Shown here: piece by piece, positions 2,652 to 16,055 of the stretch
Numbering within the stretch: position 1 is the stretch's first letter
Layout of the letters: each line of letters starts with the position of its first letter
From: a virus
DNA length: 21,032 bases
Reading direction: 5' to 3' (one strand)
Virus record (IMG/VR): IMGVR_UViG_3300033153_004192
Location: 1 to 21,032 of that record
The notes under the pieces: model-generated
Told to the model about the DNA's origin: nothing
Database searches by the model: none
The model's input: the letters and a program-made list of their open reading frames with translations, nothing else
Position numbers and translations under genes: made by a program

Positions 2652-2950
2652 CAGTGTGTCACCTTTGTCGGGTTCCAACCAAGGCCTGTCGATTTTTCCA
2701 GACCATCCCATGTTGTAAGGGTGTTGCCGGGGTCTATCTTCTTTAGACATTTCTCGGCAACGCTTGAAGCCCCAGCATGAAAATGGGCGGTAACAAGATA
2801 TGTACTTTGTGTAACAGCACCACCCTCTCTAAATCTCCAAGGCACCAAACCAATGTGTTTAATGATGGTCACCTCCTCCCCGTTATACTTCGCAGACTCA
2901 TCAAGCAAATTACAAAGCACAACAATTTCCCCATCAGCAAATTTAGCCAT
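2651..2950 (-). CDS. Small protein, possible SH3-like or beta-rich fold
   Basis: This is a 99-residue protein from the ATG at 2950 (TGATG overlap with the upstream stop, GGAG 8 bases before). The opening FADGEIVVLC and the EEVTIIKHIG segment look like the start of a small beta-barrel, similar to short phage proteins with SH3-like folds. No catalytic motif is seen. The Ser/Thr-rich middle and the Trp-containing C-terminus give no further clue. Confidence 0.6.
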   Translation of the reverse strand: MAKFADGEIVVLCNLLDESAKYNGEEVTIIKHIGLVPWRFREGGAVTQSTYLVTAHFHAGASSVAEKCLKKIDPGNTLTTWDGLEKSTGLGWNPTKVTH

Positions 2951-3150
2951 CAATACTTCTCCCACAAGTCACTGAGTATTGATAATTGTTTATCGGATAA
3001 GAACCCACCATCATCAGAATATGTTTTAATACTCCGAATGAATCCCTGTTCCCATTTGGACAACTTAGGATTACAGGAAAGTGAGACCATAACAAAATCA
3101 ATACTCTTTAAAGTGTTATCGAAACTATATGTCACAATAACAAATCCCAT
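2950..3150 (-). CDS. Small conserved-type phage protein, start uncertain
   Basis: The C-terminal part carries LSKWEQGFIRSI and LSDKQLSILSDLWEKY, a pattern I associate with short phage proteins of unknown function (LSxWExxFIxSI...LSxKQxxxL). The start is unclear. ATG at 3150 (66 residues) and GTG at 3135 (61 residues, GTGA overlap with the upstream stop) both have weak ribosome sites, and a TTG at 3210 would read through most of the small membrane gene upstream. I prefer 3150 or 3135. Confidence 0.65.
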   Translation of the reverse strand: MGFVIVTYSFDNTLKSIDFVMVSLSCNPKLSKWEQGFIRSIKTYSDDGGFLSDKQLSILSDLWEKY

Positions 3151-3242
3151 ATAACAGTGCCCCAGAAAATAATAAAGAACACCGTCAATAGTATAATAGA
3201 CCAACTCCAATTACAAATCGCTTTAAACATCGCTTTAAACAC
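3132..3242 (-). CDS. Very small membrane protein (36 residues)
   Basis: GAGGAG lies 8 bases before a GTG at 3242. The frame gives a short N-terminus with a duplicated MFKA-type unit (MFKAMFKAI, from a 12-base tandem repeat) and then about 20 hydrophobic residues (WSIILLTVFFIIFWGTVIW), clearly one transmembrane helix. Its stop overlaps a possible GTG start of the next gene. The gene starts three bases after the upstream stop. Function is unknown; size and topology would allow a small lysis or membrane-modulating peptide. Confidence 0.6.
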   Translation of the reverse strand: MFKAMFKAICNWSWSIILLTVFFIIFWGTVIWDLLL

Positions 3243-3244
3243 TT

Positions 3245-3418
3245 TCAATTCTCCTCATTAATATCAGCAACAATAGGGCATCGACTATAACAGCACACCC
3301 CTCCATTATTATCCGGGTTAGCACACCATGTCTTTATGATTCTTGTTCCAACTATGGCTTTCTGCTCACAGAACCATTCACACTGGTCTCCCGGGTATAT
3401 GTCCGACTCTTCTATCAC
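3245..3418 (-). CDS. Short Cys-rich protein (57 residues)
   Basis: A GTG at 3418 overlaps the upstream stop as GTGA. The product has six cysteines (DQCEWFC, WCANPDN, GVCCYSRC), in spacing that could bind zinc or form disulfides, and an acidic C-terminus. No export signal is visible, so metal binding is more likely than disulfides. The reading frame is tightly packed between its neighbours, which supports it being real. Confidence 0.65.
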   Translation of the reverse strand: MIEESDIYPGDQCEWFCEQKAIVGTRIIKTWCANPDNNGGVCCYSRCPIVADINEEN

Positions 3419-3606
3419 TTTACAACCCTCCCAATTTTAGCCGCCGCCGCATTAAGGTCACACAGCTCATCATAAGATATTTCCAATGTGAAGTATTTGC
3501 CCAGTGGTGCCTTAATTAAAAGCGCCAATGAGTCATCTGCATTGGAATCCTTCACAATGCTTTCTATTTCACAATCCAAATCGCCGCTGTTCAAACACAA
3601 CCTCAT
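3415..3606 (-). CDS. Small acidic protein of unknown function
   Basis: This is a 63-residue acidic protein (EIESIVKDSNADDS) with a central strand-like segment (YFTLEISYDEL) and an Ala-rich helix. The ATG overlaps the upstream stop as ATGA. No family recognised. It belongs to the chain of small genes coupled downstream of the DNA polymerase. Confidence 0.65.
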   Translation of the reverse strand: MRLCLNSGDLDCEIESIVKDSNADDSLALLIKAPLGKYFTLEISYDELCDLNAAAAKIGRVVK

Positions 3607-3917
3607 TTTTTAAATGCCAACTCAGGCCTCTGCCCAACGGCAATGGCTTTGAGCATTGTATCAATGTCCACCATTTGAGCAAATCCTGTTTCTTTTGCTT
3701 CAATAATGTTTTGTGGACTGCCAGCATTAGTTTGAATAAAATTACTTAATGTTATCCACATACTTGATGTTAACAAAGCGGGCTTATCAACAAAGATGAT
3801 TTCAGCATCAGGTTGATCTGGGCTTTTGTACACCCCTGTTGCTGGATAATTACTGGCAGTGTATTTATTTGTAGCAGTAATGCCCGCTGGTGTGTCTTTT
3901 ATTTCTAAATAGTTCAT
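3603..3917 (-). CDS. Small protein directly downstream of DNA polymerase
   Basis: This is a 104-residue protein with mixed strand and helix character and no recognised motif. The ATG overlaps the polymerase stop as ATGA, and a GAGG lies about 9 bases upstream, so it is translationally coupled to the polymerase. An accessory role in replication is possible from position only. Confidence 0.65.
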   Translation of the reverse strand: MNYLEIKDTPAGITATNKYTASNYPATGVYKSPDQPDAEIIFVDKPALLTSSMWITLSNFIQTNAGSPQNIIEAKETGFAQMVDIDTMLKAIAVGQRPELAFKK

Positions 3918-6739
3918 GATAATTTCCTCAGTTGTTTAACATAAATTTTGCGCCAGTTATCCTTGACTTCACCTTTAATAAGATACCAGTCACCCTCTTT
4001 GCCTGTTTCTGCTATTGCCTTACCAAACTTTTGGTAGTTCCATCGAGACACCGTAACAATAATTGCATCGGTATCATCTTCCATTGTCATGTTAAGGAAT
4101 AACGGATTTTGTTTGATAAGTTTCCCGCCTCTCTTAACAACAGAAGCATATTCATTTAAGTCGCGCAAGTTCTTTTCTTTTAACTTAGCGATAACAATGT
4201 ACATGCCTTCATCTTGCACGTCAATAATATGGCTCACCGGCATTGACTTGATCTTATAGTTCTGCGGGTTCGCATACATATCACCCCATCGGCGCTTGGC
4301 CTCAAATATATCATCAAACGGTGTAACAGGGTTAGTGAGCTTATTCATTTGCCCTTTGGTAAGCATGTCCCCATTACTTCGGCGGCGGAATATATCAGCG
4401 GCGGTCTTTTCACCAACACCAATAATATTCATCATACCGCCAACAAGCAATCCATCTTGTACACTCCACTTTGCTTCACTATGAACGATATCAACCGGCT
4501 TATATTTAAAGCCCTCAACAACTAATTCCCTTAGCATCTTAACACTCTGGTCATCATCACGCGCATTATTGAGACAGGCCGTGGCATACTCCAATGGGTA
4601 TCTTGCTTTCATCCACCCACACCAATAACTTATCAAAGCATAGCTAACCGCATGCGACTTATTGAAAGCCCAACTCCCAAAGGTCATTATGTTTTTCCAT
4701 ATCTTGTCAGCCGTTTCCTCATCCATTCCTAACTTAGCAGCACCATTTTTAAATTTGTCCCAATAGCCGCTGAAGTATTCATCACCAAATGATTTGCTCA
4801 TCGCTTTCCGAATGTTGGTTGTGTCTGACCAATCAAAGTTTCCGATATCACGCACAATTCTCATTACCTGTTCTTGAAACACTACCGTTCCATATGTTTC
4901 TTTTGTAAAGGGCTCTATGCTTGGGTGAATGTATGTAACATGTTCACGCCCGGTGCGTCGATTAATATAATCAGTGGCACCACCATTATGAAGTGGGCCA
5001 GGCCTCGCCAAAGAAGTTATAGCAACGATGTCATCAAAGTGCTCAATGGTCATTTGTCGTGCGAGGGATTTCAATGCATAACCTTCAAATTGAAACACCC
5101 CACTCAATTGCCCTTTGTTAAGCAAATCAAAAACACGTTGGTCATCAAGCTCCAAATCATATAAAGCATCAAACGGAATCCCGGCAAGCCGACAGGCATC
5201 TTCAAGCACCGATAAGGTGCGCAAGCCCAACACATCAATCTTAAGCAAATTGAGATCCTCAGCATCATGCTTATCAATTTGGGCAACTCCGACTTTTGGA
5301 TCCACCGTACAGAACTGATCAATTGGCTCATTAGCAACAAGAATCCCAGCAGCGTGAACCCCGCTATGCTTCGCGTGCCCTTCCATTAATGAACTGATTG
5401 CCATCTCCGGGTACTTTGTTATGTATTGCTTTCCAATGTCCGTGCTTTCCAAGGAATCTTGTATGCACATCGATGCACGCGCATCGGCAGAACTCCGTTC
5501 AAGTATCGACTCTTTCACTTGCTCCGTTTCAAAGAAGTCCACGCCCAGTTCTTTTGCCGTTTCTGATATTGCGCTCTTTGGTTTGTATCTTGATACTGTT
5601 CCAATATGCGATACCTTGTCAGCTCCATACTTCGTTCTTAATGCCGCTATTATGTCTTGCCGCTTTGTGTCCGGGAAATCAATATCAATATCAGGCATAT
5701 CAAATCGATTGACATCAATGAACCGTTCAAATAGCAAATCATACTTAATCGGGTCAATCTCGGTAATGGCGGTTAAAAAACACACCAATGACCCCGCCGA
5801 GCTGCCGCGACTTGGCCCAACCAACATTGTCTTTTTCGCTTCAATAATCATATCAGCAACAACAAGAAAATAATCGGTGTAGCCTTTCTCCGCAATAAGA
5901 TTCAATTCAAACTCTAATCGCTCACCATAATCATTATATGTTCCATCGGTGTTACACAACTCAATGTTCCGCTTCTTAGCACCTTCAATACACATCACCC
6001 TCAAATTCCCTTCAAACGGGTATCTGACATTTTCCGCCTTGGGCAACACAACATGGCAATTGTCGTATATATAATCGGAGTTAGTGAACGCACTATCAGG
6101 CAACCAAGGCATAATCATTCGCAAGGTATCTTCATCGCAGATATGACCCCCCATCGCCATCTCATCAGATTGCAGTCCTGCAAGGATATGATATGCCATC
6201 TTTTGTTCGGGCTCTCCATAATAGTTATCAGACACCGCAAGTAGTTTTATTTTATGTTTTTCACTTAACCCAACCGCGCGTCTTGCCCAACCTAAGTCCT
6301 TTGGGCCAGCTTCAAGATACAACTCACACTCAAATTTAAGCACATCAAGCGCACCCATGTCGGGATTATTCCCGGACAACACAACTAGGTTCTTGCTGAA
6401 TTGCTTTATTTGGCTGTATAAGATTCGCGGCGTATAATAGAATTGTAAGTTGGCCAAGCTAACCATTTGATACAACTTACTCAACCCTTCATTATTGGCG
6501 GCAAAGAATGTCATGTAGTTTGGCCGTGGCTTTGTCCCCTTCTCTAAAGTATCGACCACCGGCAACTCAACACCAAGCACCGCATGCCGTTTTGCTTTTG
6601 CGCATTCTTTAAAGAATGAAACATGACCCCAAGTCCCACTATCAGCAATCCCAACAACATCGGGTATCGCAACGATGTCTTTTATGCGGCCATATGTTTT
6701 CTTGAACCCATATTCTGTTTTTACTTTTAAGTGTTTCAC
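3914..6739 (-). CDS. dnaE: Family C DNA polymerase (Pol III alpha type) with degenerate PHP domain
   Basis: This 941-residue replicative DNA polymerase is shorter than the cellular subunit of about 1160. Catalytic aspartates are in PDIDIDF (about 350-352) and LKIDVLGL (about 501), with the spacing expected for Pol III alpha. RGSSAGS (about 313), FQEQVMRI and NKSHAVSYA (fingers), a helix-hairpin-helix IGVGEKTAA (about 775) and a C-terminal OB-fold-like region (from about 845) follow in order. The N-terminal PHP domain is present but its metal ligands are lost: HLKVKTEYG replaces the usual HxH, and ADSGTWG replaces TDHG. Proofreading is therefore probably supplied by the separate exonuclease at 7402-7944. 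It uses a GTG start that overlaps the upstream stop (GTGA). Family C polymerases are less common in phages than family A or B. Confidence 0.93.
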   Translation of the reverse strand: MKHLKVKTEYGFKKTYGRIKDIVAIPDVVGIADSGTWGHVSFFKECAKAKRHAVLGVELPVVDTLEKGTKPRPNYMTFFAANNEGLSKLYQMVSLANLQFYYTPRILYSQIKQFSKNLVVLSGNNPDMGALDVLKFECELYLEAGPKDLGWARRAVGLSEKHKIKLLAVSDNYYGEPEQKMAYHILAGLQSDEMAMGGHICDEDTLRMIMPWLPDSAFTNSDYIYDNCHVVLPKAENVRYPFEGNLRVMCIEGAKKRNIELCNTDGTYNDYGERLEFELNLIAEKGYTDYFLVVADMIIEAKKTMLVGPSRGSSAGSLVCFLTAITEIDPIKYDLLFERFIDVNRFDMPDIDIDFPDTKRQDIIAALRTKYGADKVSHIGTVSRYKPKSAISETAKELGVDFFETEQVKESILERSSADARASMCIQDSLESTDIGKQYITKYPEMAISSLMEGHAKHSGVHAAGILVANEPIDQFCTVDPKVGVAQIDKHDAEDLNLLKIDVLGLRTLSVLEDACRLAGIPFDALYDLELDDQRVFDLLNKGQLSGVFQFEGYALKSLARQMTIEHFDDIVAITSLARPGPLHNGGATDYINRRTGREHVTYIHPSIEPFTKETYGTVVFQEQVMRIVRDIGNFDWSDTTNIRKAMSKSFGDEYFSGYWDKFKNGAAKLGMDEETADKIWKNIMTFGSWAFNKSHAVSYALISYWCGWMKARYPLEYATACLNNARDDDQSVKMLRELVVEGFKYKPVDIVHSEAKWSVQDGLLVGGMMNIIGVGEKTAADIFRRRSNGDMLTKGQMNKLTNPVTPFDDIFEAKRRWGDMYANPQNYKIKSMPVSHIIDVQDEGMYIVIAKLKEKNLRDLNEYASVVKRGGKLIKQNPLFLNMTMEDDTDAIIVTVSRWNYQKFGKAIAETGKEGDWYLIKGEVKDNWRKIYVKQLRKLS

Positions 6740-6900
6740 TTTGGTAATTCCTCTGGGGTTGCTACTTTTATAACTTCATAACCTTTTCTTTCTGCTAATT
6801 GAATTGCTGTATCGATGTGGTCAGCCTCTACTGTGAGAACTCCTACAACATGATCCATCGTTTCCATTTCCATTGATGCCCATAACTTAAATTCCATCAT
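6736..6900 (-). CDS. Short protein (54 residues) upstream of polymerase
   Basis: An ATGATG start at 6900 overlaps the upstream stop (ATGA), and the stop overlaps the polymerase GTG start (GTGA), so the frame fills the gap exactly. The product has Met-rich EMETMD, a VVGVLTVEADHIDTAIQLA segment and GYEVIKVATPEELPK, reading like a small alpha/beta domain. No family is recognised. Because it is coupled to the polymerase on one side and the zinc-ribbon protein on the other, it is likely co-expressed with replication. Confidence 0.7.
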   Translation of the reverse strand: MMEFKLWASMEMETMDHVVGVLTVEADHIDTAIQLAERKGYEVIKVATPEELPK

Positions 6901-7196
6901 TCCCCATACCTCGCTTTGTAATCACCTTCAGTTGGGCCAGTCTTATGTTTAATGCACCAAACTGTTGCGCCTTCTCTATGTGGATAGTGCGGCTCACCAC
7001 AATTGCAAATATTTTCCTTATTCTTTTTCATTTGCCATTTATCCAAGTAAGTTATTTCATTGCCACAGCTTGGGCATTTTTTCTTATTGACATATTGTTC
7101 AACTTTTCTTTTAAATGAATGCCGTTGCCAACACCTTTGTCCTTTAAATTTCCCGGTCTTATACATAGCACCGGCGCATCGGTATAAATAGCTCAC
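6897..7196 (-). CDS. Zinc-ribbon-like small protein
   Basis: This is a 99-residue basic protein with KCPSCGN (about 40-46) and a second pair ICNCGEPHYPHR, a plausible zinc ribbon. An N-terminal YRCAGAM and later CW and CIKH may form a second site. Such small zinc proteins near phage polymerases often bind nucleic acid, but no specific family is recognised. The GTG start overlaps the upstream stop as GTGA; the ribosome site is weak. Confidence 0.65.
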   Translation of the reverse strand: MSYLYRCAGAMYKTGKFKGQRCWQRHSFKRKVEQYVNKKKCPSCGNEITYLDKWQMKKNKENICNCGEPHYPHREGATVWCIKHKTGPTEGDYKARYGE

Positions 7197-7405
7197 TTTT
7201 TAATGTGCTCTTCAATCGCTTGTAATTGTTTGCTTGCGTGTGATACTTGCCTCGATATAAAACCCATCATCAATGACTGTATCTCCAGCGCAATAAGGAT
7301 CAATCCAATTATAATGGTTGTCCATAGTGCATGAGTTTCTTGCCACGATGCCGCGATTAATCCCCCTGACATCAAGAACCTAGCCAATACTGTTAGTGCT
7401 TTCAT
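7193..7405 (-). CDS. Small membrane protein, two hydrophobic segments, holin-like topology
   Basis: This is a 70-residue protein. Segments about 3-21 (LTVLARFLMSGGLIAASW) and about 28-48 (WTTIIIGLILIALEI, then SLMMGFI) are hydrophobic, and the C-terminus is a charged helix (ASKQLQAIEEHIKK). Two transmembrane helices and a charged tail resemble small class II holins, but no endolysin gene lies nearby, so this is topology only. The ATG overlaps the stop of the exonuclease gene (ATGA). Confidence 0.6.
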   Translation of the reverse strand: MKALTVLARFLMSGGLIAASWQETHALWTTIIIGLILIALEIQSLMMGFISRQVSHASKQLQAIEEHIKK

Positions 7406-7944
7406 AATACCCCCTGTTTACTTAACCATTTACAAACATCAAGAAGGATCTCGCAATCCCCAATTGCCCGGTGTTTTTGTTCCGGGTCTTGGCCATAAGC
7501 GTGCTTGTAAATGTCTTGTAGTTTTGTATACTTGCCTTTGAATAGGCTTTTGCTATTCTCGGCGGTACACGTGTGAATGAATGGCCATGGGAAATGAAAC
7601 TCCATTCCAATTCGCCTTAACTCGAATAATAATAGATTGCGGTCAAATGGCAAGTTGTGCGCAATCATGCGGTCTGAATCTTTAAAGAAGCCAACCAACT
7701 CTGGTAAGTAGTGGCTAAACTTCGGCTGTTTCTTTATGTCTGCCGGTGTTATCCCTGTTATTTTTGTTATGAATGGTGGCAATGATATTGGTGGCTTGCA
7801 TAAGAAGTTCATGCGGCCAATCTCTTTCCAATTATCATCAACCTTAATGGCGCCAAGCTCTATAATGTGCGGCTGTTGTAGCAGTGGTTTTGCCGCGTTC
7901 TTAACAAGCCCGGTTGTTTCTGTATCGAGTATTATTGTATTCAT
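7402..7944 (-). CDS. DEDDh 3'-5' exonuclease (DnaQ / Pol III epsilon-like)
   Basis: This is a 180-residue protein with Exo I LDTETTGL (D7, E9), an ITGIT segment, Exo II AHNLPFDRNLL and Exo III HRAIGDCEIL (H158, D163), the complete DEDDh set. It has the length of the bacterial epsilon catalytic domain. It would remove misincorporated nucleotides, and it probably serves the family C polymerase encoded about 660 bases downstream, whose PHP domain is degenerate. Whether it binds that polymerase cannot be seen. The ATG overlaps the upstream stop (ATGA), with GGAG about 10 bases before. Confidence 0.9.
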   Translation of the reverse strand: MNTIILDTETTGLVKNAAKPLLQQPHIIELGAIKVDDNWKEIGRMNFLCKPPISLPPFITKITGITPADIKKQPKFSHYLPELVGFFKDSDRMIAHNLPFDRNLLLFELRRIGMEFHFPWPFIHTCTAENSKSLFKGKYTKLQDIYKHAYGQDPEQKHRAIGDCEILLDVCKWLSKQGVL

Positions 7945-8135
7945 GAATTTGGATCTCCGTCACATAATACATAATCATCATCAACGACTAAATGCCATAT
8001 TGGGGAATGGCCATTGAGATTCCGATTAAATTTTTCAGCAAGATCTTCTGCTTGCTTTTTAGTTAGGTGATTGAAGCTAACCTGTTTTTCAGGATAATTG
8101 TCAATATTATGATTGCTAGTTTCTATTACTTTCAC
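7941..8135 (-). CDS. Small protein of unknown function
   Basis: This is a 64-residue protein starting at a GTG (8135) with AAGGAG about 7 bases upstream. It has a short helix rich in Lys/Glu (LTKKQAEDLAEKFNRNL) and a strand-like end (WHLVVDDDYVLCDGD). No family recognised. It is the first gene after the structured intergenic segment and is coupled by ATGA to the exonuclease. Confidence 0.65.
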   Translation of the reverse strand: MKVIETSNHNIDNYPEKQVSFNHLTKKQAEDLAEKFNRNLNGHSPIWHLVVDDDYVLCDGDPNS

Positions 8136-8225
8136 AACACACTCCTTAAAAGAAGGTCTTGCCCACTCGCATGATCAACGCAGCGTCAACCAAGGTATTA
8201 TCCAGCAAGCAAGACCAATTCGGGC
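8136..8225 (-). terminator. Intergenic stem-loop, possible terminator or RNA element
   Basis: GGTCTTGC at 8155-8162 pairs perfectly with GCAAGACC at 8209-8216, and two G-U pairs could extend the stem inwards. The loop is 46 bases. Read leftwards, the stem is followed by TTCTTTT and then the AAGGAG of the next gene. A short stem before a T-rich run fits an intrinsic terminator, but the loop is long. It could instead be a structured leader controlling the next gene, or a small RNA. No tRNA fold fits. Confidence 0.4.
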
Positions 8226-8426
8226 TTAACCTAGTTTGCAGCGCAACTTGGCGGCAATGACTGATGCTTTACCAAAGGCCGATAACTGAGAACGGATTGT
8301 TGCCATGTCTTTGCTTTCACCTTTCATGTTATCAATTAGACCGGCCACAATCGCTTTTTTATTTTCGGTCATGATTGCCTTTTGTGCTTTCAGTTCTGCT
8401 TTCACTTTCTTTGTATCAATCTTCAT
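8226..8426 (-). CDS. Small basic helical protein
   Basis: This is a 66-residue, Lys-rich protein, predicted almost all helical (VKAELKAQKAIM, then ATIRSQLSAFGKASVIAAKL). It could bind nucleic acid, but no motif is recognised. The ATG at 8426 has GAGG about 9 bases before, inside the overlapping end of the upstream small gene. It is followed by the stem-loop region, so it may be the last gene of the enzyme cassette transcript. Confidence 0.65.
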   Translation of the reverse strand: MKIDTKKVKAELKAQKAIMTENKKAIVAGLIDNMKGESKDMATIRSQLSAFGKASVIAAKLRCKLG

Positions 8427-8565
8427 TTTTCTTTTCCTCTTGTTTATAAAAGTTGTACATTATTTTGAGCAATGGTGCTCGTGTTTTAACCAGCCACTGA
8501 TAAAATTTTAATGAGTCCTTGATGTTGGCTGGTAAACTATTCCACCAAGGTTCATCTTCATACAT
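8416..8565 (-). CDS. Short protein (49 residues), WW-rich N-terminus
   Basis: The ATG at 8565 overlaps the end of the VOC gene by 8 bases and the frame runs into the next gene by 11 bases, filling the gap exactly. The product (EDEPWWNSLPANIKD, then FYQWLVKTRAPLLKIMYNFY) has a composition typical of real protein, with many aromatics and a charged C-terminus. No strong Shine-Dalgarno is seen, so it may depend on coupling. Function unknown. Confidence 0.55.
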   Translation of the reverse strand: MYEDEPWWNSLPANIKDSLKFYQWLVKTRAPLLKIMYNFYKQEEKKNED

Positions 8566-9022
8566 CTAGCATTATGCGCTGAATGACTTTCAGGTCAAAT
8601 CCGATAGCTTCACGCGTATCAAAAATAACATATTTGTATTTGCGCTTCCCTTTGATGTTTGGATTTGAATGCGATTGCGTTTCTACCTGCTGCGCAATTC
8701 CATAACCGAGCTTTGCCATCTTCTCGATATAAGGCTCAACATCATCAACATGGAGTCCTAAGTGGCTCATGCCTGACTTTTGCTTATGCCGTTCAATCCA
8801 GTTATCCCCGGCGTCATACTTTAATATTTCAAATTCAAATGGTCCAATCTGATAATTAAAGTTCAATGTCGCTTCGCTAACAACCGGCTCACCAAACACT
8901 TCCCCTTTGGCAACAACATGATCTTCTTGCCATTCATCAAAGCCCAATTCGGATAACGCTTCAATTAGCTTGTCCGGGTTTTCGGAATAGATTGCCACCT
9001 GTTCAATTTTAATGTCTTTCAT
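8558..9022 (-). CDS. VOC (glyoxalase/bleomycin-resistance fold) protein
   Basis: This 154-residue protein fits one VOC domain made of two beta-alpha-beta-beta-beta modules: an opening strand IEQVAIYS, a FEFEILKY strand, then HLGLHVDDVEPYIEKMAKLG in the second module. His and Glu residues in these strands are candidate metal ligands (H of MSHLGLHV, E of FEFEILKY). VOC proteins include lyases, epimerases (methylmalonyl-CoA epimerase type), dioxygenases and binding proteins, so the reaction is open. The ATG at 9022 has AAGGAG 6 bases before; an earlier start at 9076 would lie inside the radical SAM gene. It is the last clear enzyme of the cassette. Confidence 0.75.
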   Translation of the reverse strand: MKDIKIEQVAIYSENPDKLIEALSELGFDEWQEDHVVAKGEVFGEPVVSEATLNFNYQIGPFEFEILKYDAGDNWIERHKQKSGMSHLGLHVDDVEPYIEKMAKLGYGIAQQVETQSHSNPNIKGKRKYKYVIFDTREAIGFDLKVIQRIMLDV

Positions 9023-9032
9023 TTTATTCTCC

Positions 9033-9935
9033 TTAAAAGAATGATTTTTTAGTTTCAATGCCATCACATACTTCATTTATCTCAGATAAACGCTGCACGC
9101 AACACGACCTACATATGCTGGGCAAATCTTTGTATTCAAGTTTAGAATAGGCCACAACATTTTTCCAAGTCTCACTCCAATCACCATTTATATAGCCAAA
9201 TGGTTCTGTAAATGTATGAGACTTGGTGTCACCATTGGTGATGCAGCATGGATATACATCACCCTGCGAACCGATGTACAGCTGATATAATACCGCCGAA
9301 CAATGTTTGAACTTACTTACAAATCGAGGCACCGCCGATTGAACGCTGCTCATCGGATAGACCGAGCGCATATCAATTCTGATATCTCTACCTTTAGCAA
9401 ATTCTTGTATCAAAGGCCATTGTGATTCATTTTCCTTATGAATGGTAACACCGAGTTCAACATTCACCCCGGCTGCGATCATACGGTCAATGCCTTCAAT
9501 TATTTTTTTAAGCGGCGTATGGCCACGCACGACTTTGTATACATCTTCCTCAACCGCATCGAGACTCACCCGGATCCAAGCAGCCTCCTTAAGCAAATCC
9601 ATATCAATTGAAGGTGGAACAAAACCGGAGCAAGTAAAGCCAAACGGCAATCCAAGCCCAACATGGTATGCCATCACTTCATTGATGTCGCGATAAGCAA
9701 AAGGATCTCCACCACTATAGCAAACGGACTCAACCCCGTTTGCTACCATGCCACCAAGAAACTTCAACCAATCCTTAACATCGATTGTGTATTGCGTTCT
9801 ATCCGGGTGGTCACACATTATACATCGGTTGAAACATTTATCCGTCAATGCTACTTGTATTGATATCGGTGCACCGGCATAACCACCGGCAACAATCGGA
9901 AAGTATCGTGCAATTTTAGCGGTGCGCTTATCCAT
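9033..9935 (-). CDS. Radical SAM enzyme with SPASM-like C-terminal cysteines
   Basis: This 300-residue enzyme has the CxxxCxxC cluster CFNRCIMC (C34, C38, C41), which binds the 4Fe-4S cluster used to split S-adenosylmethionine. It is followed by YSGGDPF (about 73-79) and further strands of the partial barrel (IRVSLDAV, VELGVTIH). The C-terminus has HCSAVL, GDVYPCC and CRSCC, the pattern of a SPASM-type auxiliary cluster domain. SPASM enzymes modify peptides, sugars or other substrates by carbon-centred radical chemistry. The substrate here is unknown; no obvious precursor peptide lies next to it. The ATG overlaps the methyltransferase stop by 8 bases with GGAG before it. A radical SAM/SPASM gene is uncommon in phage genomes. 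Confidence 0.88.
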   Translation of the reverse strand: MDKRTAKIARYFPIVAGGYAGAPISIQVALTDKCFNRCIMCDHPDRTQYTIDVKDWLKFLGGMVANGVESVCYSGGDPFAYRDINEVMAYHVGLGLPFGFTCSGFVPPSIDMDLLKEAAWIRVSLDAVEEDVYKVVRGHTPLKKIIEGIDRMIAAGVNVELGVTIHKENESQWPLIQEFAKGRDIRIDMRSVYPMSSVQSAVPRFVSKFKHCSAVLYQLYIGSQGDVYPCCITNGDTKSHTFTEPFGYINGDWSETWKNVVAYSKLEYKDLPSICRSCCVQRLSEINEVCDGIETKKSFF

Positions 9936-10719
9936 AACAAATCTCCATTAGTTCATTTTTGAAATTGTCTCTGGTCTTGCGTCCAGCATCATAATAATTC
10001 CGGCCTGCTCTCCGTAAATCTTCAAGCACTTCCAAATCTTCTTTGCGCATCGGAGTGCCTTTCACAAGATTGATGACCTCAAAGCCCCAAAAGGAATTGG
10101 TGCCCCCGTTGGGCAAAAGTTTCAACCGCGTTGGTAACTTATCAACACCAAAACCTTTTTTAATGAGCTCATCAAATACAAATGGCAACAAATACGCGCC
10201 GATTCTTTGGAGCCAATGAATTTCCATACATATCCATTTTAGATTTGGATTGAGTTTGCTTCGCAGCAACATATCATACTCCGAACCTTCAACATCAATC
10301 TTCATACCAACGGGCTTGTATTCTTTTAACAAATCCCGGAACAAAGACACTTTGACCTTCGTGTAATGGTATCGCTCATCTTTTGTATTTTCCGTTATCA
10401 TCGAATTGCAATAATAATCATTTTCAGCGTCTTTCTTATTAGTACGCAAATGCAGTTTCTTATCCTTGCCTACAACAGCAACCCGCTTCACTGAAAATTT
10501 ATGAGCTTTGGCTTGTGCTTTGGCTTTCTTGAATGCTTCCGGGTGCGGTTCAAATCCAACAACCTTTCCAGCACCGGCCTCCATTAAGTAAGCGGCAACA
10601 AGACCTTCATTGCAACCAATATCCAATATCGTCTTACCAATCAGAAACTTCGGGGGGATCTTCTTCAAGTCCCGGATTGTCTGATTGGCTCCGCGTTCTG
10701 CTTTTGTTTTATCACTCAT
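9928..10719 (-). CDS. FkbM-type SAM-dependent methyltransferase
   Basis: This 263-residue protein has the Rossmann methyltransferase motif ILDIGCNEG (about 31-39), an acidic EPHP motif (57-60), and KIDVEGSEYDML (about 140-151), which is characteristic of the FkbM family. FkbM enzymes usually O-methylate sugars or polyketides. The C-terminus (about 210-263) is basic and helical and may be an extension for substrate or partner binding. ATG at 10719 follows AAAGGAG by 6 bases. It is coupled to the radical SAM gene downstream, suggesting successive steps on one substrate. Confidence 0.85.
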   Translation of the reverse strand: MSDKTKAERGANQTIRDLKKIPPKFLIGKTILDIGCNEGLVAAYLMEAGAGKVVGFEPHPEAFKKAKAQAKAHKFSVKRVAVVGKDKKLHLRTNKKDAENDYYCNSMITENTKDERYHYTKVKVSLFRDLLKEYKPVGMKIDVEGSEYDMLLRSKLNPNLKWICMEIHWLQRIGAYLLPFVFDELIKKGFGVDKLPTRLKLLPNGGTNSFWGFEVINLVKGTPMRKEDLEVLEDLRRAGRNYYDAGRKTRDNFKNELMEICYG

Positions 10720-10722
10720 ACA

Positions 10723-10899
10723 TCACTCCTTTAGTTCTGCTTTTGGCTTACTAAATGCCCTGATTGCATTTTTCATGTCGCCAATGTCTTTCATAGCCCA
10801 TAAATCATCAAGCAAGCTTTCCAGCTTATCTATTTTGGTTTGTTGTTCTTTGTTCACCCTCTCTAATTGAGAAATATATCCATGGTTTGCATCAACCAT
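10723..10899 (-). CDS. Short coiled-coil protein (58 residues)
   Basis: ATG at 10899 has GGAG 6 bases before, overlapping the end of the upstream MazG-like gene. Residues about 9-34 (ISQLERVNKEQQTKIDKLES and on) form a heptad-like helix, probably a coiled coil, followed by a shorter helix and a Lys-rich end. The frame fills the gap between its neighbours with three bases left, so it is likely real although it is short. It may act as a scaffold or small regulator; unknown. Confidence 0.7.
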   Translation of the reverse strand: MVDANHGYISQLERVNKEQQTKIDKLESLLDDLWAMKDIGDMKNAIRAFSKPKAELKE

Positions 10900-10902
10900 A
10901 CA

Positions 10903-11175
10903 CTACTCCATGACCGAGGCAAGCATTGCACAAAACACCGCCAAATCCCGGGGGGAGTCTTTGTGATTCTTGTCGGTTGCTATTCGATTTGTTTTTATTA
11001 CAATTTGAACCATTAAGTGAAAGCGCAAATAATCATCAGGGCATGACAGCGTGATGCCTTCCGGGTAAAGTGCGTGGAGAACTTCACCCTGTCGCTTCCA
11101 AGCATCACCATACTCTTTATTTTTCTCCAAATATAAATCGGATAATTCCTTCAAAATCTGGTCAGGTGTTTTCAT
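10903..11175 (-). CDS. MazG/DUF1599-like nucleotide-metabolism protein
   Basis: This 90-residue helical protein has EKNKEYGDAW (about 18-26) and a C-terminal RDLAVFCAML, matching the pattern KxxxYGxxW...DLAxYxxM. I associate that pattern with DUF1599, linked in the literature to nucleotide modification, and with compact all-alpha NTP pyrophosphohydrolases. The usual acidic EExxE metal site of MazG is not obvious, so pyrophosphatase activity is uncertain. A role in the nucleotide pool or with modified nucleotides fits its position beside ThyX and the HAD phosphatase. The start ATG has GGAG about 10 bases upstream. Confidence 0.6.
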   Translation of the reverse strand: MKTPDQILKELSDLYLEKNKEYGDAWKRQGEVLHALYPEGITLSCPDDYLRFHLMVQIVIKTNRIATDKNHKDSPRDLAVFCAMLASVME

Positions 11176-11180
11176 TATTG

Positions 11181-11906
11181 TTATGCTCCGTAAGGTAAGA
11201 TGTTGCCAGATAAGTGAAAATTGTTTTCACGCTTATGTAAAAGGTAGTAAACAAAATTGGCGATTGCCTCTGCCGGGATTTCTTTTCCCGCCACCAATCC
11301 ATTGAGCTGATACTCATGCGCCTTTTCTTCAGACCAACCACGCATTGCGGGAACCGTCTTGTCAATATAATCGCTCATGCCCGTGCCTTCAATTTTAGCG
11401 GGGGAGATCCCAAAGACTGTGATGCCGTTTTTCTTTGTGAGTTCTCTTGCGAGTTGTTGCGTCATTATATGCGCAGCTCCTTTGCTCGCATTATAAGCGA
11501 GGGAAGTTGTCATTGGCATATGTGATGCGTTGCTAACAATATTCAATATCGTGCCTTTGCTGGTTGTTAGCTTCTCCAGACATTCTTTGGCCGTTATAAA
11601 TATTGATTTTGCATTCACCCCGATGAGGTGGTCAAAGTTCGCGCTTGTTTCTTTTTCCAACCATGCGATATGATTAATGCCGGCATTATTAATAAGAACA
11701 TCAATCACCGGAATATTCTGTAAAGCCATTCGCACAGACTCTTCAAATTGGACATAGCATTCAACCCATTGTTCATGACCAAGTTCAGACTCCGGTGCTA
11801 CACAATCGAGGTTCCAAACAAAGTGGCCTTCATCGGCAAACTTAATTGCCATGGCTCTCCCCAATCCGCTACTTGCTCCGGTTATTACAACATTCAACAT
11901 CTTCAT
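11181..11906 (-). CDS. Short-chain dehydrogenase/reductase (SDR)
   Basis: This 241-residue classical SDR has the nucleotide-binding TGASSGLG (9-16), NNAG (73-76), VNAKS (98-102), a Ser in NIVSNAS (about 123-129) and the catalytic Tyr/Lys pair YNASK (Y138, K142). The active site looks complete, so it should reduce or oxidise a carbonyl/hydroxyl with NAD(P)(H). The substrate is unknown; family members act on sugars, sterols, acyl carriers and cofactors. ATGA overlap with the HAD gene puts it in the same transcript as ThyX. SDR genes are rare in phages and suggest a metabolic pathway brought from a bacterium. Confidence 0.9.
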   Translation of the reverse strand: MKMLNVVITGASSGLGRAMAIKFADEGHFVWNLDCVAPESELGHEQWVECYVQFEESVRMALQNIPVIDVLINNAGINHIAWLEKETSANFDHLIGVNAKSIFITAKECLEKLTTSKGTILNIVSNASHMPMTTSLAYNASKGAAHIMTQQLARELTKKNGITVFGISPAKIEGTGMSDYIDKTVPAMRGWSEEKAHEYQLNGLVAGKEIPAEAIANFVYYLLHKRENNFHLSGNILPYGA

Positions 11907-12352
11907 TGTTTAATCTCCACTGTTGGTATTTCCAATTCACGATACATATCACAGATGTCTTCACGGTCATCAATTGCTTGAACTATCTCCAATCCGATTT
12001 CCATCATATGCATTACAACTTGCTTTTTTAAATTTACTGATGATTGCCGGTCACCTTCCTTGCGCATTATTAAATGGTCATGCCTAACCTTCCACCGGGT
12101 AAGTTGCTCAAGCGTTCCCGCTTTATACTTTTCAGGCCTGCCGGTAAGTATAACAACAAGCACATCGCTAGACAAAGAGTTGACCACGTTGATGACGCTT
12201 CTTGCCGGTTCATCAAATTCCATAGCCGAGTGAAACATATCCCACATCTCTTGCCTGCGGTGCGGTGCCACCGCGTCCAGATTGCTTACGATCCAAACGC
12301 GATGTTTAACATCAGCAACACAACCGTCCATATCAATCAATGCGACTTTCAT
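11903..12352 (-). CDS. HAD-superfamily phosphatase, polynucleotide kinase phosphatase-like
   Basis: This 149-residue protein has HAD motif I LIDMDGCVAD (D7, D9), motif II ILTGRPE (about 68-74), a central Lys and the acidic motif AIDDRED (about 126-132). The order and size resemble the phosphatase domain of T4 polynucleotide kinase and some nucleotidases. It would remove a phosphate from a nucleotide, polynucleotide end or small molecule. The start is ATG at 12352 (TGATG with the ThyX stop) or the GTG just before it at 12355; both have the same GGGAG upstream. Its place between ThyX and the MazG-like gene supports a nucleotide substrate. Confidence 0.8.
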   Translation of the reverse strand: MKVALIDMDGCVADVKHRVWIVSNLDAVAPHRRQEMWDMFHSAMEFDEPARSVINVVNSLSSDVLVVILTGRPEKYKAGTLEQLTRWKVRHDHLIMRKEGDRQSSVNLKKQVVMHMMEIGLEIVQAIDDREDICDMYRELEIPTVEIKQ

Positions 12353-13119
12353 CACATAGTTCTCCCGGGTGCGACCAACTCAACATTGGCTTCATGCTCG
12401 AATTTTGACCAAGCTACCTTTGCTGAATCCTTATAGATCTTTTGGTCACTCGGCTTCATTATAAAAGGCCGCACCGGGCACTCTTCATATCGAGGGAAGG
12501 CACAAGTGCCGTGATTGGCACAAAATACCTCGATGAATTCTTCAGCCCATGGGTGTACCGCAACAACCGCCGCTTTCATCGCTTTGAATACGTCTTGGTA
12601 TTCCCCTTGTGTTCTTTTACACAAACGGAGTTCTGCCATTTGGTGAAGGGTTCTCAAGTTAGCATTCATCATGACGCTTGTTTGAATGTTGGTTGGGATA
12701 ACTCCCCGGGCATCTTGTCGCGGCATGCCCATCTCAACCAATTGGCTGTAATCACTTATGGATTGCTCCATCGATAGATCGAATGATTCCATTTGCTCTT
12801 CATTGGCGCCGGGTGGTGTTAACCAATCCGCCTTACTAGCATCAACAACTCTCATCGCTTCTTGAGCATATGATGCGGTTCGGGTTCTTACTAATTGATG
12901 AGTGAATGCCCGGGTAACACCAGAGATTTTGAAAACGTAGTTGACAAACTCCCAACTACTTTTGATTGTATCTCTCATGTAGGCAAGGTGTTCCAATTTC
13001 TCTTCCATTGGTAGCGCCTTCAACCCTTCCATATCTTCAACACCTTGTAGCCGAGTATTTTTTGTGAACAAAAGTAACTCAAGCGCGTCTGGTGTATAAC
13101 TTATTAATTCAACCTTCAT
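12352..13119 (-). CDS. thyX: Flavin-dependent thymidylate synthase ThyX, variant signature
   Basis: This 255-residue protein has the ThyX region HQLVRTRTASYAQEAMR (about 74-90) and the C-terminal RLCKRTQGEY and CAFPRYEECP blocks typical of the family. ThyX makes dTMP from dUMP with methylene-tetrahydrofolate, NADPH and FAD. The signature RHRxxSxNExSxR is altered here: His to Thr at 79, Asn to Ala at 85 and Ser to Ala at 88. The flanking arginines R78, R80 and R90 are kept. Some natural ThyX variants have Gln near position 86, so partial change is tolerated, but the loss of the His is unusual. AAAGGAG precedes the ATG, which overlaps the FAD enzyme stop (ATGA). Confidence 0.85.
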   Translation of the reverse strand: MKVELISYTPDALELLLFTKNTRLQGVEDMEGLKALPMEEKLEHLAYMRDTIKSSWEFVNYVFKISGVTRAFTHQLVRTRTASYAQEAMRVVDASKADWLTPPGANEEQMESFDLSMEQSISDYSQLVEMGMPRQDARGVIPTNIQTSVMMNANLRTLHQMAELRLCKRTQGEYQDVFKAMKAAVVAVHPWAEEFIEVFCANHGTCAFPRYEECPVRPFIMKPSDQKIYKDSAKVAWSKFEHEANVELVAPGRTM

Positions 13120-14090
13120 GTTCGTGCTCCTTTGAATCTGTCATAGGGGTCTGAATTAATCATCGCCCGGATTTTAAAATTGTCTTCATAAACATCATCA
13201 AGCAAAATATTTTGCCAGCAAGCAAACCTTCCCGCTGAATAGATGTTGTACTTTTGAGTCAACATAAGCATAAAAGATCGCCTCACCCGATTGTCAATCG
13301 GACTTATCTTGCCATACTGCTGGGTTGATTGAATGTGATGGCTCAAGTCAATGGCTTCACCCCCTTCAATGCCCAAATTGAAAGTGCTGAGCCCAAAAGA
13401 GTCCAACACATCAATCATATTATTGTGGGATATTATCCCGATGCTCTCAACAATAAGGTTCTCCCCGGTCAATGTCGCTCTATAAACAGGCGTGTTGAAC
13501 TTCGGATAGTAGATGGTTTGATAAACATCACAATCCTTAATCGTGAACCGCGTCACTGTTATTGGTTGGTGATTAAAATCAAGAACCTTATCAGTGTCAA
13601 ATGCTTCACGAACCAAATCAGCCATCACATTCATCGGGATTGTGCTAACAATCGGCTCATCAAAACGCTGAAAGGCAGGGGCATTATTAAAGTAAATGGC
13701 ACCGCTAGTAATAGACTCGACACAATGATTGAAGTGAATATTATCACCAAGCCTATCTGCAAGCATGTTGTGGAAGTCACTGGGGGCTATATATCGCTCA
13801 ACCGTATCGAGGTTGACAATTGATCGTGGTTGAATTTTGCCTGTTACCTTTTGGCTATATTTATTCATCCACTGTGCGCCAAGCATACGCTCTTTGCCAT
13901 CTGCCCAAATTGATTTGTACACCTTAACCTTCTTGAATGGGATTCCCGTTGTCTTGCTTATTTTATCATCGCGGAACCTTAACACCGCGCGATGAGTGTT
14001 TGGCAACCCGGTGGCCGCTTCATAAATTTCAGCACCCGGGTTTAACACGCCCATGAGACAACCAGCCATTCCTGCGCCGAGTATCTTCAT
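13116..14090 (-). CDS. FAD-dependent oxidoreductase
   Basis: This 324-residue protein begins directly with a dinucleotide-binding motif (ILGAGMAGCLM, GxGxxG at 5-10) and ends with YSAGRFACWQNILLDD, a typical second FAD contact near the C-terminus of amine-oxidase/UDP-galactopyranose-mutase-like flavoproteins. The reaction is not evident. The start is ATG at 14090, overlapping the upstream stop (ATGA) with GGAG before it; a start at 14144 would add 18 unrelated residues ahead of the Rossmann motif. It is coupled to ThyX, another FAD enzyme, which suggests action on the same nucleotide pool. FAD enzymes of this kind occur in some phage thymidine hypermodification pathways; whether this is one is inference. 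Confidence 0.8.
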   Translation of the reverse strand: MKILGAGMAGCLMGVLNPGAEIYEAATGLPNTHRAVLRFRDDKISKTTGIPFKKVKVYKSIWADGKERMLGAQWMNKYSQKVTGKIQPRSIVNLDTVERYIAPSDFHNMLADRLGDNIHFNHCVESITSGAIYFNNAPAFQRFDEPIVSTIPMNVMADLVREAFDTDKVLDFNHQPITVTRFTIKDCDVYQTIYYPKFNTPVYRATLTGENLIVESIGIISHNNMIDVLDSFGLSTFNLGIEGGEAIDLSHHIQSTQQYGKISPIDNRVRRSFMLMLTQKYNIYSAGRFACWQNILLDDVYEDNFKIRAMINSDPYDRFKGART

Positions 14091-14656
14091 ACAAGCTCCA
14101 TTGATTGAGAAATTTGATTGGTGAAGGTTAGCTTCTTCAAACAAGATAATGCTGACCGCTCATCAATATCATTTTTGATAGCAAGCCCAACATAATCAGA
14201 CACCGGTAACTTCTTGCGGTTCGCGTTTGCTATAATAATATCATAGCATTGTTTGCGCACTGAACCCTTTTGAAAGATCTTCCCTTCATGCGGCAATATG
14301 GAAATTGTTTTGTCAAGCACCTTTGACTTCCCGGGTTCTTTCTTACCCAGCATTTTGTTCACTGTAGCGGTGCGGGATACAACCGGCGCTTTCTTTCTGC
14401 TTGGTAAGACTGTTGGCCCACTCTTCGTGCCACCCGTTGGTGCGATGTATTTATAGATCCGCTTTGAAGCATCATCTTTGCTAGCAAATCTTTTCACGGT
14501 CTTACCGGTTAGACTTTTATAAAACGCGGTCAATTGAGCACCAGACATCGGCTTAATAGCCCACAGCACTTGCGTCCTAGTCATTAGACAACCCGCAATT
14601 TTAGCGGGGTTCTTAACTGCCATGCCTTTTTTAACTGTAATGAATAATTGTTGCAT
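14087..14656 (-). CDS. Basic protein with possible C-terminal winged helix
   Basis: This is a 189-residue, Lys-rich protein. Residues about 40-72 (LTAFYKSLTGKTVKRFASK and following) match a motif found near the N-terminus of several phage DNA-associated proteins. A basic, Pro/Ser-rich linker (about 73-125) follows, and then a compact helical C-terminus from GSVRKQCYDIII that looks like a winged-helix domain. A DNA-binding or regulatory role is likely, with the target unknown. AAGGAG lies 8 bases before the ATG at 14656. Confidence 0.65.
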   Translation of the reverse strand: MQQLFITVKKGMAVKNPAKIAGCLMTRTQVLWAIKPMSGAQLTAFYKSLTGKTVKRFASKDDASKRIYKYIAPTGGTKSGPTVLPSRKKAPVVSRTATVNKMLGKKEPGKSKVLDKTISILPHEGKIFQKGSVRKQCYDIIIANANRKKLPVSDYVGLAIKNDIDERSALSCLKKLTFTNQISQSMELV

Positions 14657-14682
14657 TGTGTTTCTCCTTATTGAATTTTAAT

Positions 14683-14874
14683 TTAAGTTTTGTCATTCCA
14701 AACTTCGTATGAGTCTACAAAGTTTTGTATGCGTGTTCTAACTTCGACAATTTCACGCTCATCATATACCAACTCACCATTCTTGGCCATTGTAAATCCT
14801 TGGCCGCTTCCTGAAAAGAATGAAATGAAATAGTGTATGCCCTTTCTTCTTTCAACTGCTTTTAAAAATGCCAT
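14683..14874 (-). CDS. Very small protein of unknown function
   Basis: This is a 63-residue protein from ATG at 14874, which has AAGGG about 8 bases upstream. It holds a basic helix at the start (FLKAVERRKG), a FSGSGQGF loop and an acidic C-terminal helix. An upstream start at 14901 would read through the hairpin leader and is not preferred. No family recognised. Confidence 0.6.
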   Translation of the reverse strand: MAFLKAVERRKGIHYFISFFSGSGQGFTMAKNGELVYDEREIVEVRTRIQNFVDSYEVWNDKT

Positions 14875-14882
14875 AATGATTC

Positions 14883-14920
14883 CCTTAAAGGGGGGGCACA
14901 TCCATGTGCCGGGGGTTTTA
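14883..14920 (-). promoter_or_regulatory. GC-rich leader hairpin before a small gene
   Basis: On the minus strand the stem GGCACA/TGTGCC (14895-14900 with 14905-14910) has a four-base loop and is flanked by C-runs. It is followed by CCCTTTAAGGG, whose two halves could pair and so hide the AAGGG ribosome site of the next gene. There is no T-run, so a terminator is unlikely. A translational control or transcript-end stabilising element is more plausible. Confidence 0.45.
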
Positions 14921-14923
14921 TTG

Positions 14924-15994
14924 TTAAGCTACTTCAGCAATGTTTTTCCAATTGCGATCACTCATCTCAAGAATCTGACCACCGATTGTTTCCAACTCGA
15001 TTGCCCGGTCATATGACTTTGTATCATTAGCCACTTTGGTTACGGCATTAAGCATTCCCCATTTGGAATAATCATGGTCAGCAATTAAGTTTTCCAACAC
15101 TGACTCTTGTTCACTCTTCTGGAATGAAAATGCTTTGCCGAGTTCTTCAACAGCCTCAAAAGGGTTATCAATGATGCGGCCTTCAGCCGATGCTTTCATT
15201 TGCTCCATTAGTTTAGCAAACAATTCAGGGTCTGATAAGTTCTTGATTGAATCTCGAATCTTAAGCATCAACGCATGGTCATCAGCCTGCATAGTTTCAT
15301 CGGTGTAAATTGTATAATCCTCACCAACTGAAGTTTGGCGACCAAGATGAGACTTACGCATGCGGCCTTCAGAGAACTCTGAACCCGTTACCATGCCATT
15401 GGTACATACCAATCGATAAATCATCGGTTTGATTATCAGGGAACCTGAACCAATCTCGCTATTTGTAATGATCATGCCGTGCTGTACAACATCACCCTTC
15501 TTAACTTCACCTTCAAGTTTTGGTAAGCGGGCTTGAATGTACATGCGGTTGTCGGTTATCTCACTTGACATTACTTCGATGCCGCTGTTGCTTTCCAATA
15601 AAGCGGGAAGCACGGCTTCAGCAATTTGCTCATTGTCAATGCGGCGGTAGCGATCCGATAAAATAGCCCGGGCATTATTATCAAGAGTCCGAACCATTTG
15701 ACGCTTCGGTTCATTATCCATCCAATGGCGAATATTACTCACAAGCAAATCTGGCGCATCATGCATCATGCGTTCATAATACTTAAAAGGAACATTCATG
15801 CGGCCTGCAATTTGGCGGTGAGCATGGGGGGTGATATCGAAGCTGCCCTGTTTAGGAACATCAACGACAAATTTGTCATCAACATCATCATGAGTGAAAT
15901 TCATTTCACGAGTATCCGCAATGAAGTCTTTTTTCGCTTCTGATTGGCGTTGGATTTCGTTTGCTAATTCTACAATTGTTTTTCCGTTTTTCAT
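14924..15994 (-). CDS. DUF932 family phage/plasmid protein
   Basis: This 356-residue protein matches the DUF932 pattern: SFDITPHAHRQIAGRMNVP, a YYERMM segment, RAILSDRYRRIDN (about 110-125), and a MIYRLVCTNGM segment. It ends in a long helical C-terminus. The family is common in phages and plasmids and lies in replication or early regions; its biochemical role is not established. The start is ATG at 15994, with GGAGA 6 bases upstream; the start at 16039 would add 15 residues inside the leader. The leader shares the sequence ATACTGGAGAAATAAAA with the gene at 16379-16705. Confidence 0.85.
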   Translation of the reverse strand: MKNGKTIVELANEIQRQSEAKKDFIADTREMNFTHDDVDDKFVVDVPKQGSFDITPHAHRQIAGRMNVPFKYYERMMHDAPDLLVSNIRHWMDNEPKRQMVRTLDNNARAILSDRYRRIDNEQIAEAVLPALLESNSGIEVMSSEITDNRMYIQARLPKLEGEVKKGDVVQHGMIITNSEIGSGSLIIKPMIYRLVCTNGMVTGSEFSEGRMRKSHLGRQTSVGEDYTIYTDETMQADDHALMLKIRDSIKNLSDPELFAKLMEQMKASAEGRIIDNPFEAVEELGKAFSFQKSEQESVLENLIADHDYSKWGMLNAVTKVANDTKSYDRAIELETIGGQILEMSDRNWKNIAEVA

Positions 15995-16028
15995 TTTATT
16001 TCTCCAGTATGTTTTTAGGTATGTATTC
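15995..16028 (-). promoter_or_regulatory. Repeated ribosome-binding leader
   Basis: The leader sequence ATACTGGAGAAATAAAA before the DUF932 gene also occurs exactly before the gene starting at 16705. The leader at 16350-16371 is a diverged relative (ACATACCT, then ATACCGGAGAG). The ribosome site GGAGA is inside the shared block, so a translational regulator could bind all three. Confidence 0.5.
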
Positions 16029-16055
16029 AAAAGTGCCATTATTGGCGGTTTGTTT

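Follow-up and report, generated by a model that had tools for sequence, protein, structure and literature searches.

A ThyX-based phage gene cassette with exchangeable tailoring enzymes as a probable source of non-standard thymidine

Kinase-dependent hypermodification of thymidine, as in phages M6, ViI, phiW-14 and SP10, combines, close to phage replication genes, a thymidylate-synthase-type entry enzyme with radical SAM and other tailoring enzymes, and uses a ThyA-type hydroxymethylase, a 5-hydroxymethyldeoxyuridine (5-hmdU) DNA kinase and an amino-acid:DNA transferase. Carbamoylation of 5-hydroxymethylcytosine has been proven in a second system, in which a phage carbamoyltransferase and a ThyA-type enzyme yield 5-carbamoyloxymethylcytosine and MazG-like domains co-occur (MetaGPA; PMC8670742). 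A third set of genes, carried by the PB1-like phages (Lindbergviridae: Wifcevirus, Myosmarvirus, Carpasinavirus, Kylevirus, Plutovirus and Pbunavirus), is annotated, but we found no function described for it in the open-licence literature, so that a description may exist elsewhere. Here we analyze nine genes of the 21,032-base virus record IMGVR_UViG_3300033153_004192, a fragment of a phage genome referred to in its entirety as the window. They encode an FAD-dependent protein (FAD), ThyX, a HAD phosphatase, an SDR oxidoreductase, a MazG-like protein, a small coiled-coil protein, an FkbM methyltransferase, a radical SAM/SPASM enzyme and a VOC protein. Judged from sequence, they are probably one form of a cassette common among phages that supplies phage DNA with a non-standard thymidine or another 5-substituted deoxyuridine. 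The original prediction had likewise regarded the set as one functional unit with thymidylate at its center, and its product is still best read as a modified nucleotide.

The PB1-like cassette shares with the window the order FAD-ThyX-HAD/MazG-(SDR-VOC)-exonuclease-DnaE, and its proteins are ~36-47% identical to the window FAD, ThyX, SDR and VOC. It differs from the window in that HAD and MazG-like domains usually form one polypeptide and in that FkbM and radical SAM are missing; the Pbunavirus version also lacks SDR and VOC. The window joins a Lindbergviridae-type core to the exonuclease and DnaE, but with the MazG-like gene placed after SDR. The kinase-dependent pathways share with the window the type of entry enzyme, the radical SAM and tailoring enzymes and the replication neighbourhood, whereas the cassette has ThyX and a flavoprotein resembling UDP-galactopyranose mutase (UGM) and lacks the three hallmark enzymes. 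Searches for the 5-hmdU DNA kinase (PF18723; 0/29 cassette records, with 10 cultured-phage records searched whole), the ThyA-type dUMP hydroxymethylase (PF00303; 0/29) and the amino-acid:DNA transferase (PF18724; 0/24) were all negative, and the M6 control was positive for each. The analogy to known thymidine hypermodification that had been drawn for these genes is not supported, and the 5-hmdU-kinase route was rejected as the mechanism because all three enzymes are absent from all carriers tested. The 5-carbamoyloxymethylcytosine system resembles three other cassette loci (L083, L069 and L072) in which a carbamoyltransferase accompanies a thymidylate-synthase-type enzyme and a MazG-like protein; the cassette differs from it in using ThyX rather than ThyA and probably in acting on uracil/thymine rather than cytosine, and the window has no carbamoyltransferase.

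How widely is this arrangement distributed? FAD matched 359 phage records by tblastn, 291 of them from Pseudomonas, and the closer ThyX matches in cultured phages fall in the same organism groups (291 Pseudomonas, 27 Escherichia, 9 Serratia, 6 Xanthomonas). Annotated regions read FAD-ThyX-HAD/MazG-exonuclease-DnaE in Pseudomonas 14-1 and Burkholderia WTB, and FAD-ThyX-HAD/MazG-SDR-VOC-exonuclease-DnaE in Xanthomonas XcP1, Luteibacter Pluto, Pantoea Kyle, E. coli Mansfield, Serratia MTx and Aeromonas Gekk3-15, with looser versions in Rhizobium RHph_Y65 and Vibrio VA-RY-3. Lindbergviridae, the PB1-like family, accounts for most of these phages (PMC12451628). A FAD profile scan of IMG/VR gave 238 relatives, and 80 loci were studied; our collection scans were seeded by short patterns and may have missed relatives. 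When FAD was clustered at 75% identity, 50 clusters had a locus reaching the exonuclease or polymerase, and FAD was linked to ThyX in all 50 of these, to HAD in 41 and to the MazG-like protein in 42, counts that are not corrected for phylogeny. Among 84,980 bacterial and archaeal genomes, one such profile scan placed the FAD family in a single location, a phage-like contig within a metagenome-assembled genome (MAG) that also carries ThyX, HAD, MazG-like, SDR, VOC and exonuclease genes. Comparison of these gene neighbourhoods shows a conserved core (FAD, ThyX, HAD and MazG-like) beside DnaE, accompanied by exchangeable tailoring enzymes.

The exchangeable part lies in a variable slot ahead of the exonuclease, occupied by SDR and VOC, a radical SAM enzyme, a carbamoyltransferase, a sulfotransferase or a methyltransferase. 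Both SDR and VOC are present in 15 clusters, 2 have SDR without VOC and none has VOC without SDR (Fisher 6e-11, uncorrected for phylogeny), and a separate VOC scan found SDR at 79/79 further VOC loci. With SDR and VOC so consistently paired, most of the window set corresponds to a cassette that is already deposited and functionally undescribed. The NodU/Nol-like carbamoyltransferases lie at two different positions in the cassette (13514-15337 in L083; 10900-12612 in both L069 and L072), which suggests independent gains. The slot holds a sulfotransferase in L006 and a phrog_6636 methyltransferase in L029, with members of the same cluster in L014, L035 and L084. In four loci (L026, L067, L079 and L080) it holds a radical SAM enzyme ~50% identical to that of the window, in every case inside the cassette. 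The window enzyme retains CxxxCxxC (C34, C38, C41) and the SPASM cysteines, and the IMG/VR profile scan returned no further close relative of it; more distant radical SAM enzymes occur near ThyX in L101 and L102. For FkbM no match was found in cultured phages, and distant ones appeared only in a single-sequence IMG/VR scan. Given these slot contents and scan results, the window is an unusual variant that combines SDR+VOC with FkbM+radical SAM and encodes HAD and the MazG-like protein in two genes. The combination with FkbM, SDR and VOC had been called undescribed; FAD-ThyX-HAD/MazG-SDR-VOC is deposited in dozens of cultured phages, and it is the addition of FkbM and radical SAM that is unusual.

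The same four radical SAM loci encode a 235-245-aa protein between the MazG-like and radical SAM genes that was found only with this radical SAM and has no Pfam, PHROG or PDB relative. A ThyA-like identity was considered for it and found no support in a PDB profile search, in comparison with M6 ThyA or in an AlphaFold model (pLDDT 42).

FAD belongs to phrog_4828, a PHROG of unknown function (1.3e-76), and its AlphaFold model (pLDDT 90.2) gives UGM as the top Foldseek matches (E 3.4e-12, TMq 0.65-0.71, 11-15% identity). A sequence-profile search of the PDB gave no match, and the link to UGM comes from the predicted fold only; the model indicates a nucleotide-sugar flavoenzyme fold. ThyX enzymes carry the motif RHRxxSxNExSxRY. 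The window ThyX passes the family cut-offs (Pfam Thy1 127.6 bits against 24.8, 6.6e-37; NCBIfam thyX 92.9 against 87.9). In an alignment of 89 ThyX sequences, the RHR histidine (H79) is replaced by T or S in 84 and Y91 by V or A in 79; arginines 78, 80, 138, 156 and 165 are invariant and R90 is kept in 88. A single family, phrog_4889, matches HAD with its N-terminal part and the MazG-like protein with its C-terminal part; the two domains share a single polypeptide in several relatives and are separate genes in the window, where the MazG-like protein has no Pfam match above cut-off.

How might these enzymes make a modified base? The divergent ThyX would add a one-carbon unit at C5 of dUMP to give dTMP or a reactive or hydroxylated relative, and the UGM-like flavoprotein would act with ThyX on the same pyrimidine nucleotide. 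The MazG-like hydrolase and HAD phosphatase would then clear competing unmodified pyrimidine nucleotides or trim an intermediate. The variable module would decorate the resulting handle, on the nucleotide or on DNA; in the window this could involve oxidation or reduction by SDR, VOC, the radical SAM enzyme and methyl transfer by FkbM. The modified residue in DNA would finally block host restriction enzymes. We give an even chance to the broader proposal that this is a kinase-independent hypermodification based on ThyX and a UGM-like flavoenzyme, with exchangeable modules, spread across PB1-like phages, podoviruses, jumbo phages and actinophages; in the window, radical SAM and FkbM added to SDR+VOC would give an undescribed base. 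If true, hypermodified thymidine would be reached by a second route, one based on ThyX, with modular enzymes acting on pyrimidine nucleotides. The PB1-like phages are in wide use for P. aeruginosa therapy.

The broader proposal would also explain the behavior of Wifcevirus. E. coli phages of this genus in the BASEL collection (Bas98-101) resist restriction by unexplained means; ManiWeber (Bas99) carries the whole cassette and Bas98, 100 and 101 carry VOC, which makes the cassette a concrete genetic candidate for this resistance. The Wifcevirus relative Mansfield retains 16 EcoRI, 5 EcoRV and 5 EcoKI sites, and a lack of sites is thus not a sufficient explanation of the resistance. The match between cassette and resistance is a correlation within one genus.

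Several points weigh against a modified base. A different gene could be responsible for the resistance of Wifcevirus, and EcoP1_I remains effective. Pbunavirus and Wifcevirus under-use BamHI, XhoI and SmaI sites, as unprotected phages do, and when we asked whether T-rich sites are spared from avoidance, control phages with and without modified DNA could not be told apart. Much of the co-occurrence described above reflects relatedness among the phages and their conserved synteny. ThyX may simply make dTTP, the window is only a 21-kb fragment, and the open-licence literature yielded no nucleoside chemistry for any cassette carrier.

In the site counts, BamHI, BglII, XhoI and SmaI sites are strongly under-used in Mansfield (L109-L112) and 14-1 (L113-L116), and the observed/expected ratio of GATC is 0.38 in Mansfield. 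Site avoidance was discarded as a signature of T modification: Mansfield avoids GC-only palindromes, but so do the unmodified phages T7, N4, T1 and LUZ24. Two published observations were not counted. DNA of Pbunavirus AA20 resisted 10 of 16 enzymes (PMC11945000), but sites for several of these enzymes are rare or absent in the genome of Pbunavirus 14-1; yeast-made JG024 DNA is restricted (PMC10913387), a result confounded by host methylation.

The strongest alternative is that the genes serve nucleotide supply only, such that ThyX makes dTMP for fast replication, the MazG-like protein and HAD clean the pool, and the oxidoreductases recycle cofactors or belong to unrelated auxiliary metabolism. 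The cassette does adjoin the DnaE polymerase and the exonuclease, ThyX scores above the NCBIfam equivalog cut-off, and very fast replication has been reported for Wifcevirus (PMC11990801). However, this leaves unexplained the tie between flavoprotein and ThyX, the pairing of SDR with VOC and the slot shared by carbamoyl-, sulfo- and methyltransferases and radical SAM enzymes, and we regard it as unlikely. Still more doubtful is counter-defence chemistry, in which the enzymes would produce or remove not a DNA base but a signalling or inhibitory nucleotide such as a viperin-like product. The HAD and MazG-like hydrolases could degrade nucleotides, and the radical SAM enzyme is weakly similar to prokaryotic viperins (3.1e-5), but the PADLOC matches are weak, other radical SAM families score higher, a SPASM domain is present and the exchangeable transferases are what one would expect if a polymer or a nucleotide were being decorated. 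A surface-sugar or host-metabolite pathway, in which the UGM-like FAD, SDR and FkbM would modify polysaccharide, had been named as the main alternative and could draw on the UGM fold and on FkbM enzymes often acting on sugars, but it is very improbable since the FAD family was confined, in the one profile scan of bacterial and archaeal genomes, to the phage-like, cassette-bearing MAG contig, the genes sit among phage replication genes and the window set has no glycosyltransferase.

As originally proposed, the nine genes are co-directional and tightly packed (Table 1); all frames are intact and in the order listed by their coordinates, and Pfam and NCBIfam support the domain identities. The set had been placed at 8416-14090, of which the start at FAD holds and the end is instead 8558. 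Overlaps of 4 bases join FAD to ThyX, ThyX to HAD and HAD to SDR. Gaps of 5, 3 and 3 bases precede the MazG-like, coiled-coil and FkbM genes, the radical SAM gene overlaps FkbM by 8 bases, and a gap of 10 precedes VOC, whose start is 9022 or 9076. This spacing points to co-transcription of all nine.

Table 1. Positions of the cassette genes and their neighbours in the window
Feature	Coordinates	Strand	Basis
189-aa protein directly upstream of FAD	14087..14656	-	N-terminal part resembles phrog_4730-like 'c0' family
FAD: UDP-galactopyranose-mutase-like flavoprotein, phrog_4828	13116..14090	-	PHROG profile and predicted fold
Divergent ThyX-family enzyme; RTR in place of RHR motif	12352..13119	-	Pfam, NCBIfam, alignment of 89
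HAD-superfamily phosphatase, PNKP-phosphatase type	11903..12355	-	HAD_PNKP 5.8e-15
SDR oxidoreductase, phrog_3142 FabG-like	11181..11906	-	adh_short 1.2e-33
MazG-like protein	10903..11175	-	Matches C-terminal part of phrog_4889
Small coiled-coil protein	10723..10899	-	Sequence
FkbM-family SAM-dependent methyltransferase	9928..10719	-	FkbM 2.8e-10; TIGR01444 7.3e-21
Radical SAM/SPASM enzyme	9033..9935	-	Radical_SAM 1.7e-17 and SPASM 9.6e-7
VOC (glyoxalase-fold) protein, SDR partner	8558..9022	-	Glyoxalase_4 8.3e-9
PolIII epsilon-like DEDDh exonuclease marking the conserved downstream edge of the cassette	7402..7944	-	
DnaE-type PolIII alpha, conserved downstream neighbour of cassette	3914..6739	-	

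More distant sets of similar enzymes were also seen. The 192-kb virus contig L102 carries ThyX, a UGM-like FAD, HAD, radical SAM/SPASM, a uracil-DNA-glycosylase-family protein and an NAD-dependent epimerase within ~13 kb (2928-15617), the first four all within 7 kb, and is a distant version of the cassette. An actinophage counterpart in Microbacterium phage Ajin (L118, 5775-16429) comprises an oxidoreductase, a phosphatase, SDR, VOC, a split DnaE, a glycosyltransferase and ThyX. Such actinophage sets (Ajin; Gordonia Xenia2) resemble the window in having an oxidoreductase, an NT5C-like phosphatase, SDR, in part VOC, ThyX and DnaE, but their FAD protein is only distantly similar, ThyX lies apart, and a glycosyltransferase or methyltransferase is found rather than radical SAM; their phosphatases weakly match NT5C, of the pyrimidine deoxynucleotidase family.

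Within the window, the small coiled-coil protein had no relative among the first 80 cassette loci. The gene upstream of FAD overlaps it by 4 bases, and its product matches the c0 family (hidden Markov model, 1.5e-10), a cassette-linked family of 20 members whose genes elsewhere lie mostly between FAD and ThyX. Further upstream, a 371-aa phrog_1362 protein of unknown function (14924-16039) lies between the cassette and helicase/primase genes.

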